Origin: Saccharopolyspora erythraea NRRL 2338
GTDB lineage: Bacteria; Actinomycetota; Actinomycetes; Mycobacteriales; Pseudonocardiaceae
Assembly: GCF_000062885.1 (NCBI RefSeq)
Contig: NC_009142.1
Coordinates: forward strand, 2,283,584 to 2,347,583
Length of the DNA: 64,000 nt
Reading direction: 5' to 3'
Every line of letters starts with the position of its first letter. Position 1 is the stretch's first letter. Under the pieces are notes generated by a model that worked only from the letters and a program-made list of their open reading frames with translations, searched no databases and had not been told where the DNA came from. A program made the position numbers and the translations under genes. Of this stretch, positions 40,843 through 44,281 are shown one piece after another.

Positions 40843-41819
40843 GCACCGGAGACGACGGCACCGTGCGAGCGGTGGCGCTGGGCGGCGGTCACGGCCTGCA
40901 GGCGACGCTTTCGGCGCTGCGGCGGATCACCTCGGAGGTGACCGCCGTGGTCACCGTCGCCGACGACGGCGGCTCCTCCGGCAGGCTTCGGCGCGAGCTG
41001 GGCCTGCTGCCACCCGGCGACCTGCGCAAGGCCCTGGCCGCGCTGTCCGACACCGACCGCCGGGTGTGGTCGGAGGTCTTCGAGCACCGCTTCGGCGGCA
41101 ACGGCGCGCTGGCCGGCCACTCGGTCGGCAACCTGGTGCTCGCGGGCCTGCTGGAGGTCCTCGGCGACCCCGTCGCGGTGCTCGACCAGGCGTGCGAGCT
41201 GCTGGGCGTGCGCGGCCGGGTGCTGCCGATGTCGAGCACCCCGCTGGACATGGAGGGCGACGTCGTCGGGCTCGACTCGGACCCCGCCGCCATTCGCACG
41301 ATCCGGGGACAAGTCGCATTGGCAAGTACGCCCGGTCGGGTGAAGCAGGTGCGGCTCTACTCCAGCAACGGGGAACGGGGTGAACCCAAGGCCTGCCCGC
41401 AGGCCGTCCAGGCGGTGCTGGAAGCCGATGTTGTGCTGCTAGGACCCGGTTCCTGGTTCACCAGCGTGCTGCCGCACCTGCTCGTCCCGGAGCTGCACGA
41501 GGCGCTGGTGAACACCTCCGCGCGGCGGGTCGTGGTGCTCAACCTTGTCCCGCAACCGGGCGAGACGGCGGGATTCTCACCCGAACAGCACCTCGACGTA
41601 CTCTCGCAGCACGCACCCGCGCTGCGGGTGGACGCGGTGCTGGCCGACGCCGACTCGGTGCCGACCCCGGACCGGCTCCGCGCCGCCGCGGCAGGTCTGG
41701 GTGCGCAGACATTGCTTGATCGGGTCGCCCTGCCCGGCATGCCGGGACGGCACGATCCCGAGGCGCTGGCGGCGAGCCTGACGGCCGCGCTGGAGAGGAG
41801 GACGGACCGGTGGCGATGA
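40839..41819 (+). CDS. yvcK: YvcK/CofD-like protein (UDP-sugar-binding, gluconeogenesis factor)
   Basis: A 326-residue protein of the YvcK branch of the CofD fold. It begins [20 protein letters not shown] and has [20 protein letters not shown] and [13 protein letters not shown], then [17 protein letters not shown] and [16 protein letters not shown]. Homologues bind UDP-N-acetylglucosamine and adjust the balance between central carbon flow and wall synthesis. It starts GTG in the rapZ stop and overlaps the whiA start by ten bases. Confidence 0.93.
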
Positions 41820-42790
41820 CCTCGGCGGTCAAGGACGAGCTGAGCAGGCTGTCGGTGACCAAGACCTGTTGCCGGCGATCTGAGGTGTCGTCGCTGCTGC
41901 GCTTCGCGGGCGGCCTGCACATCGTCGCGGGCCGGGTGGTGGTGGAGGCCGAGCTGGACAGCGGGTCCTCGGCGCGCCGGCTGCGCAAGGAGATCCACGA
42001 GCTGTTCGGCCACCAGTCCGACGTGCACGTGATCACCTCCGGTGGTCTGCGCAAGGGCACCCGCTACGTGGTGCGCGTGGTCAAGGACGGCGAAGGGCTG
42101 GCCCGCCAGACCGGGCTGCTCGACCCGCGCGGCCGTCCGGTGCGGGGCCTGCCCGCGCACGTGGTCTCCGGCGGCGCCTGCGACTCCGAGTCGGCGTGGC
42201 GCGGCGCCTTCCTGGCGCACGGCTCGCTGACCGAACCAGGCCGGTCCTCCTCGCTGGAGGTCACCTGCCCCGGGCCGGAGGCCGCGCTGGCCCTGGTCGG
42301 GGCCGCTCGCAGGCTGGGCATCCAGGCGAAGTCCCGCGAGGTGCGCGGGGCGGACCGGGTCGTGGTCCGCGACGGCGACGCCATCGGCGCCCTGCTCACC
42401 CGCCTCGGCGCGCACTCCAGCGTGCTGGCGTGGGAGGAGCGGCGGATGCGCCGCGAGGTCCGCGCCACGGCCAACCGGCTGGCCAACTTCGACGACGCGA
42501 ACCTGCGGCGCTCGGCGCGCGCGGCGGTCGCCGCGGCGGCCAGGGTGGAGCGGGCGCTGGAGCTGCTCGGACCCACGGCGCCGGACCACCTGCTGGTCGC
42601 GGGCAAGCTGCGCCTCTCGCACCGCCAGGCGTCGCTGGAGGAGCTCGGCCAGCTCGCCGAGCCCCCGATGACCAAGGACGCCGTGGCAGGCCGCATCCGC
42701 CGCCTCCTTGCCATGGCCGACAAGCGCGCCCGCGAACTCGGCCTCCCCGACACCGAATCCGCCGTAACGGCGGAGATGTTGGAGGCGTGA
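41810..42790 (+). CDS. whiA: Sporulation regulator WhiA
   Basis: A 326-residue DNA-binding protein. The N-terminal two thirds is a degenerate LAGLIDADG homing-endonuclease fold ([40 protein letters not shown]), and the C-terminus is a helix-turn-helix ([33 protein letters not shown]). In Streptomyces it works with WhiB to switch on sporulation genes. Start GTG at 41810 gives the usual [16 protein letters not shown] 41816 is an alternative. The stop codon lies inside a family 2 hairpin. Confidence 0.95.
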
Positions 42791-42846
42791 CGCTCCGCGT
42801 CACGAGGCCGCCCTAACGGCATCCGTGCGAAGCACGGATGAGTCAG
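42785..42846 (-). repeat. Family 2 three-hairpin repeat, copy 3
   Basis: Read on the minus strand: CTGACTCATCCGTGC-TTC-GCACGGATG, then GCCG-TTAGGG-CGGC, then CGTGACGC-GGA-GCGTCACG. All three stems are perfect. The whiA stop codon (42788-42790) is inside the last stem. Same plan as 43130-43193 and 44185-44281, but inverted on the map. Confidence 0.8.
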
Positions 42847-43129
42847 GGTCCGAAGCGCCTTGCGTTCAAGTGCCGGAGGTTCCCACCCAAGCCGGGGACG
42901 TCATCCTCCGGCCGAAAGCCCGGCCCCGCCCCGCTGTCGGGCATCAGGGCCTTTCCGTCGGCCATCCACCGCTTCCCGCCCGCAAGACGAAACCGCAGTA
43001 GCCCGGAGCCGCACCGCTCCGGGCTACTGCGCATTCGACGGCTTGCCAATCCGCCCTGCAGGCCGCGAGACCCGGCACGACTCGCCTCGCCGGCCGCGCC
43101 GCGGCACCGGCGGTAGAGCCTGTCGGATC
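42847..43129. other. Gap between whiA repeat and GH16 repeat
   Basis: No gene is supported. A minus-strand frame of 68 codons (42843-43049) has no ribosome site or known family. The main content is the terminator at 42995-43030 and the flanking family 2 copies. Confidence 0.4.
42995..43030. terminator. Bidirectional terminator between whiA and the GH16 gene
   Basis: GCAGTAGCCCGGAGC and GCTCCGGGCTACTGC are perfect 15-base arms around a six-base loop. It lies about midway between the convergent whiA and GH16 genes. Confidence 0.8.
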
Positions 43130-43193
43130 GTGACTCATCCCCGCTTCGCGCGGATGGCGCTCACGCGCCCTTCTACGCGCCTCGCGCGTAGAC
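43130..43193 (+). repeat. Family 2 three-hairpin repeat, copy 1
   Basis: GTGACTCATCCCCGC-TTC-GCGCGGATG (one mismatch), then GGCGC-TCAC-GCGCC, then TCTACGCG-CCT-CGCGTAGA. The stop codon of the GH16 gene on the minus strand is inside the third stem. Confidence 0.8.
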
Positions 43194-44135
43194 AGCCACG
43201 TAGTCCACGACCATCGGATGTCCGGGTTCGGTCGCCGCGGTCGGGGTGGCGTGTCCGGCCACGCCGTCGGGGAAGGCGCCGCCCATCGCGACGTTGAGGA
43301 GCAGGAAGTAGCCCTCGTGCGAGGTCATGTTCTGCCACGCCGTCGGGCTCACCTGCGACTCCGACACCGAGTGGTACTGCTGGCCGTCGACGTACCAGCG
43401 CAGCTGCTCCTGCGCGCCGGAGCGGTCCCATTCGAAGCGGAACGTGTGGAAGTCCTGCTGGCACGGCTGTCCCGGGCACTCCCGGCTCCCGCCGAGCCCG
43501 TTGTTCTCGTTGCACGAGCCGCCGGGTGCGACGTCGCAGTGCAGGACGCCGTGGACGTTGTTCTGCCCGTTGACGTTCTCCATGACGTCGAACTCGCCGA
43601 TTCCCGGCCAGTTCCAGTAGTTCCCGCGGTAGGGCGCCCCGAGCGCCCAGAACGCGGGCCAGTAGCCCAGCGCGGCCTCACCGGTGACGTCGGGCATCCT
43701 GATCCGCGCTTCGAGCCGCATGACGCCGCCCTCGGCCGCCTTGAAGTCCGCGCGCCGGGTCTCGATGCGGGCCGAGGTCCAGCCGCCCGACCCGTCGCGC
43801 AGCGGCGTGATCCGCAGGTTGCCCTGGCCGTCGTGGCTGAGGTTGGCGGGATCGCCGGTGTAGTTCTGGATCTCCCCGGTGCCCCAGTTCGCCGGACCGC
43901 CGGGGTAGGAGTGCCCGGTGTCGACGATCCACTCGCCGGAAGGCCCGGAACCCGCCGGGCCGGTGAAGTCGTCGCCGAAGGCCAGCGTCCAGCCCGGCTC
44001 CGGCGGCGGGACGTCGGCCTGCGCCGGGACGGTGGCCAGCCCGGTGAGGGTGAGGCCGAGGGCGAGCGACAGGCCGGCGACGCGTCGGCGGCGGTGCGGG
44101 GTTCGCGCGGTGCGGGGCAGTGGGGGTCGGGGCAT
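43173..44135 (-). CDS. Secreted family 16 glycoside hydrolase (endo-beta-1,3-glucanase-like)
   Basis: A 320-residue exported enzyme with a signal peptide ending about PAQA-DVPPP (residue 40). The GH16 catalytic motif is GIGEFDVMENV: nucleophile Glu181, Asp183 and acid/base Glu186. Upstream are WGTGEIQNYTGDPANLS and IETRRADF, and downstream DFHTFRFEWD, matching laminarinase-type beta-glucanases. It would degrade beta-1,3 or mixed-linked glucans outside the cell. A LacI-type operator lies about 180 bases upstream. Family 2 repeats stand at both ends in the same orientation. Confidence 0.92.
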   Translation of the reverse strand: MPRPPLPRTARTPHRRRRVAGLSLALGLTLTGLATVPAQADVPPPEPGWTLAFGDDFTGPAGSGPSGEWIVDTGHSYPGGPANWGTGEIQNYTGDPANLSHDGQGNLRITPLRDGSGGWTSARIETRRADFKAAEGGVMRLEARIRMPDVTGEAALGYWPAFWALGAPYRGNYWNWPGIGEFDVMENVNGQNNVHGVLHCDVAPGGSCNENNGLGGSRECPGQPCQQDFHTFRFEWDRSGAQEQLRWYVDGQQYHSVSESQVSPTAWQNMTSHEGYFLLLNVAMGGAFPDGVAGHATPTAATEPGHPMVVDYVAVYARGA

Positions 44136-44184
44136 CAGGGTTCGCCTTCCTTCCGGACACCGGTCGTTGGGCCCCAGTGGGGCC

Positions 44185-44281
44185 GTGACTCATCCGCGCT
44201 CCGCGCGGATGGCGCCAGGGCGCCCTCATGACGCTGCGCGTCATGTGCCGCCAGGGCGCCCTCGTGGCGCGGAGCGCCGTG
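44185..44281 (+). repeat. Family 2 three-hairpin repeat, copy 2, with duplicated last module
   Basis: GTGACTCATCCGCGC-TCC-GCGCGGATG, then GGCGCC-AG-GGCGCC, then CATGACGC-TGC-GCGTCATG. A second GCCAGGGCGCCCTCxTG module follows, ending in GGCGC-GGA-GCGCC (to about 44281). It lies between the LacI-type operator and the GH16 start, so it would be in the GH16 5' leader. Confidence 0.8.

Follow-up and report, generated by a model that had tools for sequence, protein, structure and literature searches.

The repeats described to date that come closest to the element reported here are the repetitive extragenic palindromic (REP) repeats and bacterial interspersed mosaic elements (BIMEs), short dispersed palindromes that are mostly intergenic, lie near the 3' ends of open reading frames (ORFs) and are sometimes paired (PMC3733652, PMC2817692; these and the other papers below are cited for selected sections). 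In P. entomophila and S. wittichii, most REPs sit between convergent ORFs less than 20 bp from both 3' ends (PMC3733652), and roles in termination and mRNA stability have been proposed for them (PMC3733652, PMC2817692). We analyzed a window of 64,000 nucleotides from Saccharopolyspora erythraea NRRL 2338 (bases 2283584-2347583 of an 8,212,805-bp contig; window positions are used for window features) that holds three copies of a three-hairpin element around the convergent genes whiA and GH16 (glycosyl hydrolase family 16). About 30 copies each are dispersed in this genome and in that of a sister species, many of them fused to a stop codon, and we lean, if only slightly, toward reading them as a genus-specific, REP-like family of palindromic repeats at gene 3' ends.

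By position, size class and dispersal the element is closest to REP repeats, but it fails formal membership. A REP is a single palindrome of 20-40 bp, usually present in >100 copies, whereas our element comprises three hairpins, mostly spans 55-68 bp and, unlike a REP, has a stop codon inside or directly before its first arm. MIRUs (mycobacterial interspersed repetitive units) are actinobacterial short repeats tied to stop codons that lie between co-transcribed ORFs and are not known to be strings of hairpins; compared by this general description only, they share the stop-codon association with our element and differ from it in lacking the hairpin string. To our knowledge, ordinary terminators form no sequence family, whereas three hairpins of common descent recur here at some two dozen loci. 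In other respects the intrinsic terminators of GC-rich actinomycetes are similar, with stable hairpins soon after the stop codon and weak U tracts (PMC12207403, on Streptomyces).

A three-hairpin repeat that is fused to stop codons and nearly specific to one genus is new. No description of such a family was recognised in the sections of the literature consulted, and the corresponding sections of a transcriptome paper on S. erythraea, which reports inverted repeats and 190 putative noncoding RNAs, mention no three-hairpin family (PMC3610266). Consistent with the original prediction, made from the DNA of the window alone, in which no named family with this layout was known, Rfam gave no match at the gathering threshold across the window. 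A search of seven element loci at E-values up to 1 returned three matches, all under the gathering threshold, including CC1840 (34.9 of 50 bits), which overlaps an element on the other strand.

Architecture of the three-hairpin element

The three copies in the window, at 42786-42845, 43131-43192 and 44186-44281, share one plan and have the layout originally described; scores below are from R2, a covariance model built from four copies.

42786..42845, plus strand in gene sense: copy 1, with stem 1 at 42786-42804, stem 2 at 42807-42820, stem 3 at 42821-42839 and a tail to 42845; 80.6 bits (R2 seed)
43131..43192, minus strand in gene sense: copy 2, with stem 1 at 43192-43172 (9 bp), stem 2 at 43169-43156, stem 3 at 43155-43137 and a tail to 43131; 51.6 bits (not an R2 seed)
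44186..44245, minus strand in gene sense, upstream of the GH16 gene: copy 3, with stem 1 at 44245-44227, stem 2 at 44224-44211, stem 3 at 44210-44192 and a tail to 44186; 83.9 bits (R2 seed)
44246..44281, minus strand: extra half unit adjoining copy 3, a second stretch resembling stems 1 and 2 (direct repeat D2, 81% identical)

The stem changes that had been quoted between copies are correct, as are the stems listed, except that a C.C mismatch in stem 3 of copy 2 (CATCCCCGC/GCGCGGATG) had gone unlisted. The TGACT that had been counted into a stem lies outside it and is not shared by further copies. We prefer the strand opposite to the one first chosen because the element then follows or contains a stop codon, and what had been the third stem thus becomes the first stem of the family. 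Nor is the element purely intergenic, as had been proposed: the TGA stop codon of whiA (42788-42790) lies inside stem 1 of copy 1, and the TAG stop codon of GH16 lies in the 3' arm of stem 1 of copy 2.

In gene sense, the main form of the family has an 11-bp stem 1 (CTTGAAGCNCC-NGAT-GGNGCTTCAAG), a 5-bp stem 2 (GGYGC-loop-GCRCC) and an 8-bp stem 3 (ATCCGNCC-GAA-GGNCGGAT), and stem 1 with its NGAT loop is longer in most other copies than in those of the window. The element spans the stop codon to ~65 nt downstream. The triloop of stem 3 has the form GNA in 20 of 29 copies in NRRL 2338 and 16 of 25 in the sister species, with TNC in 3 and 2, respectively. Folds of the window copies stood out from shuffled sequence (z = -2.9 to -4.4), although the minimum free energy (MFE) structure of 44186-44281, which includes the half unit, pairs across units rather than forming three hairpins. 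In the sister species, a different sequence occupies the place of this half unit.

Some candidate signatures were set aside. The sequence TGACTCATCC has three exact matches, one per copy, but this count is no evidence on its own because 2.94 matches are expected in shuffles allowing one mismatch (56 of 100 reach 3). The spacer motif GCCAGGGCGCCCTC had 28 matches compared with 36 for its reversed control, and model R1, built from the three window copies, was not used, RNAalifold having chosen a long-range fold.

Copy number and distribution

A pattern search gave a fourth copy; a fifth adjoins it, inverted, where the facing gene ends. R2 found 16 matches with E<0.001 in the NRRL 2338 genome, four of which are its own seeds, as well as others with weaker E-values. 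From copies found with R2 we built R3, a covariance model of 15 copies, which yielded at least 32 matches with E<0.01 in the 8.2-Mb genome, 15 of them its seeds, where scoring covered 150 of the 21135 first-look candidates. In one sister species, 25 matches had E<=0.01, two of them overlapping another match on the other strand. At the sensitivity of R3 we have probably missed few copies, since a full search of a 400-kb sample of the NRRL 2338 genome gave three matches with E<0.01, all already on the list. For the comparisons below, 62 aligned matches less six duplicates from overlapping loci and two weak opposite-strand matches (L072:1534, L081:1775) left 54 copies in alignment A7, 29 from NRRL 2338 and 25 from the sister species. 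The alignment leaves out the NRRL 2338 matches at 291368, 7436677 and 1624314 and the sister-species match at 7930647, and it includes one L099 copy that is not among the 25 matches.

GC-rich DNA yields many weak model matches, as seen in the tail of the R2 list, so we considered whether the hairpins are chance products of a GC-rich genome that merely look alike. This idea is refuted, and we give it practically no weight: E-values reach 5e-13, the covariation described below exceeds that of slid controls, and a strict stem-1 pattern matched 14 times (at 11 places) in one genome of the genus and 7 times in the other, whereas its reversed form had no match in either.

Across 200 genomes of the family, R3 gave matches with E<=0.001 in three: the two members of the genus and one genome of another genus. 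The stricter filters of this search returned 25 and 21 matches in the genus members, which served as the positive control, and a single weak match, in that other genus, among the remaining 198. The element is thus nearly restricted to one genus among the genomes searched. When up to two mismatches were allowed, the stem-1 pattern matched 4 of 249 genomes, while the reversed control had single matches in 6 of 249. Two of the four, from another genus (G058 and G021), carry one exact stem 1 each. The hairpin in G058 (locus L090), TTGAAGCCCCCGATGGGGCTTCAA, lies shortly after a gene end and is accompanied by a degenerate stem 3 match with no clear stem 2; such a lone stem-1 hairpin may be a relict or represent an ancestral single-hairpin form.

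An exact scan of genome contigs for the junction between stems 2 and 3 proved too loose, with at least 119 stretches found. None of the contexts among the matches listed had stems 1 and 3 by eye, and the best R3 match in 21 of these loci had E=0.049. Several contigs of two Planctomycetes assemblies (JAISJR01 and BNUQ01) have a longer sequence around GGCGCGAAGCGCCATCCG in common and apparently form a family of their own that is unrelated to the element.

The element is fused to stop codons

In 35 of the 54 aligned copies (19 of 29 in NRRL 2338), the preceding gene has its stop codon no more than about 16 nt from the 5' end of the element. Of 4000 random positions within these loci, 200 had such a stop codon, as did 4 of the 54 copies when the 3' end was scored on the opposite strand. 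A stop codon was counted if the frame that it closed was open for 50 or more GC3-rich codons; copy 2 of the window, with its stop codon in the 3' arm, falls outside this count. Most often (11 of the 35), the last base of the stop codon is 5 nt into the element, with TGA or TAA forming part of the first arm (as in CT-TGA-AGC), and in another 7 the stop codon directly precedes the element.

Hairpins fused to stop codons are no general trait of the NRRL 2338 genome: among 201 genes sampled from 20 stretches, a perfect hairpin of at least 9 bp at the stop codon was present in three, one of which is this element, and at six other offsets the same measure gave one of 201 genes twice and none four times. 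At the sister-species locus L293, which corresponds to the place of the 5892415 copy, the element is missing and another short hairpin, GGAGACTTTGAAGTCTCC, which has a TGA within it, stands at the same gene end.

Paired changes within and between species

Among the 15 seeds of R3, 96.9% of cells pair and 16 of 24 base pairs show double changes, with a covariation score of 0.405 compared with 0.136 after shuffling (none of 500 shuffles reached the observed score). These seeds lean toward structure because they were found with a structure model. The comparison of orthologues is less affected since the sister copies occupy corresponding positions, although alignment A7 too was fitted to R3. Its cells comprise 646 Watson-Crick, 8 G-T and 15 other combinations in NRRL 2338 and 534, 17 and 22, respectively, in the sister species.

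The orthologue set consisted of 23 copy pairs and one added pair (L038:1668 with L092:2279), with gapped base pairs not counted; the NRRL 2338 rows L043, L038:1501, L067, L070 and L035:1501 have no comparable sister row. Three analyses below cover the first 23 pairs: the slid control, the transition shares and the 16-pair subset. Fourfold rates came from 13 locus pairs. The two species differ at 9.57% of fourfold sites and, over all aligned coding sites in the flanks, at 3.60%. At this divergence, the 545 base pairs of the 24 orthologous copies contained 33 Watson-Crick double changes, 5 other double changes and 43 single changes, whereas 5.0 double and 94 single changes would follow from independent change at the fourfold rate. 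For 23 copies, the lower overall rate of the coding flanks predicts 0.7 double and 37.5 single changes, and 33 and 38 were observed, so that single changes are not depleted by this measure. Sliding the partners by 1 to 3 columns reduced the Watson-Crick double changes to 0-1. The arms therefore stay complementary while their sequences change, beyond both shuffled and slid controls, as the original prediction supposed.

That prediction had gone on to argue from the paired changes that the folded form is under selection. While the covariation is real, paired changes alone do not show selection. Covariation is no proof of RNA selection here because the preference for G-T over A-C among single changes is non-significant (18:9, p=0.12) and because 12 of the 33 double changes are of transversion type, with no G-U route between the two pairs. 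The other 21 are of transition type, and the transition share is alike in double (21:12) and single (22:15) changes (p=0.81, 23 copies). The folded form may be RNA or cruciform DNA, the two options offered originally.

Concerted change at the DNA level probably contributes to these paired changes. We base this on the number of double changes, which is near that of single ones at ~10% fourfold divergence, on the transversion-type doubles, and on visible rearrangements: an element segment inverted between species (L054/L094), half-hairpin duplications (L040/L075, L063/L079, L045/L077), extra tandem copies at 7436677 in NRRL 2338 and at 2088363 and 7930647 in the sister species, and the joint use of one stem 3 by two sister-species copies at the whiA/GH16 locus. 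The large excess of double changes, the transversions among them and the similar transition shares fit copying from arm to arm or replacement of whole hairpins. By eye, short inverted repeats (TGTGAC/GTCACA) flank the inverted segment at L054/L094.

Template switching is a described source of multibase compensatory changes, and in rRNA 61.0% of instantaneous ones are of transition type (PMC8794818), a share similar to the 21 of 33 here. Hairpins maintained in this way likewise change both arms together, but they were inferred from rRNA genealogies (PMC8794818), and our element differs in having no excess of loop inversions.

Relationship to mobile elements

With about 30 dispersed copies in each of two sister species, a position at ORF 3' ends like that of REPs, tandem gain and loss, and differences in presence between the species, the element could be a miniature inverted-repeat transposable element or REP moved by a transposase into stop-codon sites. 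We regard this as improbable. REPs bear an unpaired tag, GT(A/G)G or CGTC, at one end, but GTAG was found at neither end in any of the 54 copies, and GTGG and CGTC are sporadic (2-7 of 54 per end and strand where present). REPs of the GTAG class have a dedicated REP-associated tyrosine transposase (RAYT), although CGTC REPs lack one too; none was found for our element in a search aimed at Y1 transposases only, whose sole match in the genome (E<=0.001) adjoins an OrfB_IS605 gene. No clean empty site with a target duplication was seen, the absences having rearranged flanks or decayed remnants, and one copy used as query had no match in plasmid and phage collections.

A RAYT-driven REP was dropped as a candidate, there being one Y1_Tnp match in the genome and no R3 match with E<=0.1 in its 3-kb locus. 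This locus (L222, NRRL 2338; G000:C1:3009483-3009842) holds an IS605-type pair, in which the Y1 transposase gene is divergent from an OrfB/TnpB-like gene with a Cas12f1-like TNB domain; two more transposase-like ORFs follow, as judged from translations only.

The whiA/GH16 locus

Copies 1 and 2 end the convergent genes whiA and GH16, and copy 3 is upstream of GH16. The other features of the locus are as follows.

41810..42790, plus strand: whiA (PF10298, PF14527, PF02650)
42994..43031, minus strand: separate 16-bp GC-rich terminator-like hairpin with a T-rich tail, between copies 1 and 2
43173..44135, minus strand: GH16-like glycosidase gene (PF00722, E=4.6e-6), convergent with whiA

The hairpin at 42994-43031 is probably an ordinary terminator and is absent from the sister-species locus (L091). 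Whereas copies 1 and 2 are 285 bp apart in NRRL 2338, the sister species has a fused pair here, two elements sharing one stem 3, plus an extra stem-1-like hairpin on the whiA side.

We also looked at the whiA end in 28 relatives outside the genus for a perfect stem of at least 7 bp beginning within 30 nt after the stop codon. Four of the 28 were positive, yet the test misses NRRL 2338 and the sister species themselves, and MFE folds show short stems at or adjoining the whiA stop codon in some relatives (L265, L266, L291); we therefore draw nothing from this comparison. In some relatives whiA stops at a comparable residue, so we make no claim that the element shortened it.

A model for the origin of the paired changes

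In the explanation that we propose, the upstream gene usually ends either at the TGA of the first arm or at a stop codon immediately in front of the element. Many paired changes would arise in concert, either through template switching on the palindrome or through exchange with another, often tandem, copy, and pairing would thereby renew itself. The transcribed hairpins may then act as the 3'-end structure of the gene whose stop codon lies in them, in termination or in protection from 3' exonucleases. On the changes seen between the species, we consider it an even call that many of the paired changes arose in concert at the DNA level. A 3'-end role for the three hairpins is somewhat less probable; in its favor, the length of the element is near the median distance of 66-76 nt between coding sequence and transcript end in Streptomyces, where U tracts are weak (PMC12207403). 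The full combination, a self-renewing, transposase-free 3'-end module of three adjacent palindromes that provides or adjoins the stop codon of its gene, with arms kept complementary chiefly by template switching and exchange with neighboring copies, is offered tentatively, and we think it more apt to be wrong than right in some part.

Several observations weigh against this explanation. Loop inversion, the clearest mark of template switching, is not in excess: in 22 orthologous pairs (L034:1501 left out), 1 of 39 differing loops was inverted, against a null of 1.07, and loop flipping that looked suggestive by eye (GAA/TTC, AGAT/ATCT) was dropped on this result. More than half of the double changes (19 of 33) fall in 7 of 23 pairs that were set aside for tandem copies, half-hairpin insertion or misfit in stem length; in the remaining 16 pairs, two of which have half-hairpin insertions, 14 doubles were found in 360 base pairs where 3.3 are expected. 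For the 3'-end role in particular, stem 3 is not followed by a T tract (in 1 of 54 copies, the next 14 nt include at least 6 T; mean 2.11), and the terminator-like hairpin at 42994-43031, distinct from the element, lies downstream of copy 1. A terminator scan of the window called none of the three copies.

Further points on this side speak for selection on RNA. The G-T to A-C ratio among orthologues rose from 14:8 to 18:9 when the 24th pair was added, and in pooled copies, which are not independent, it is 25:12 (p=0.047). Single changes are depleted relative to the fourfold rate (43 versus 94), as selection would give, and both single and double changes in the element are rich in transitions compared with the transversion-rich fourfold sites (148 transitions, 386 transversions), which could be explained by the G-U route or by codon usage. 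Moreover, the retention of the GNA triloop in one orientation looks like a constraint on one strand. Together with the strong covariation, the fusion of the first arm to stop codons in gene sense, and the Streptomyces terminators that also lack strong U tracts and have covarying hairpins (PMC12207403), these points are what one would see if the element were a conserved cis-acting RNA, in a 3' untranslated region or terminator, with hairpins selected as RNA through classical compensatory substitutions. We nevertheless find this account doubtful, given the non-significant G-T preference among orthologues, the doubles without a G-U route and their number relative to singles, the orthologous copies that are decayed or missing (L067, L070) or, in one case, inverted, and the other terminator-like hairpin downstream of whiA.

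The standard way to prove that an RNA fold is functional is to show that its paired bases covary. With about 30 dispersed copies, many of which have close orthologues in a sister species, the family allows covariation to be split into the part due to selection, marked by G-U intermediates and strand asymmetry, and the part due to concerted change at the DNA level. If our explanation of self-renewing pairing is true, strong covariation would arise with little RNA selection, a warning for the discovery of structured RNAs by covariation. Lastly, a repeat whose own stop codon closes the genes that it follows would make the acquisition and replacement of 3' ends in actinomycetes testable.

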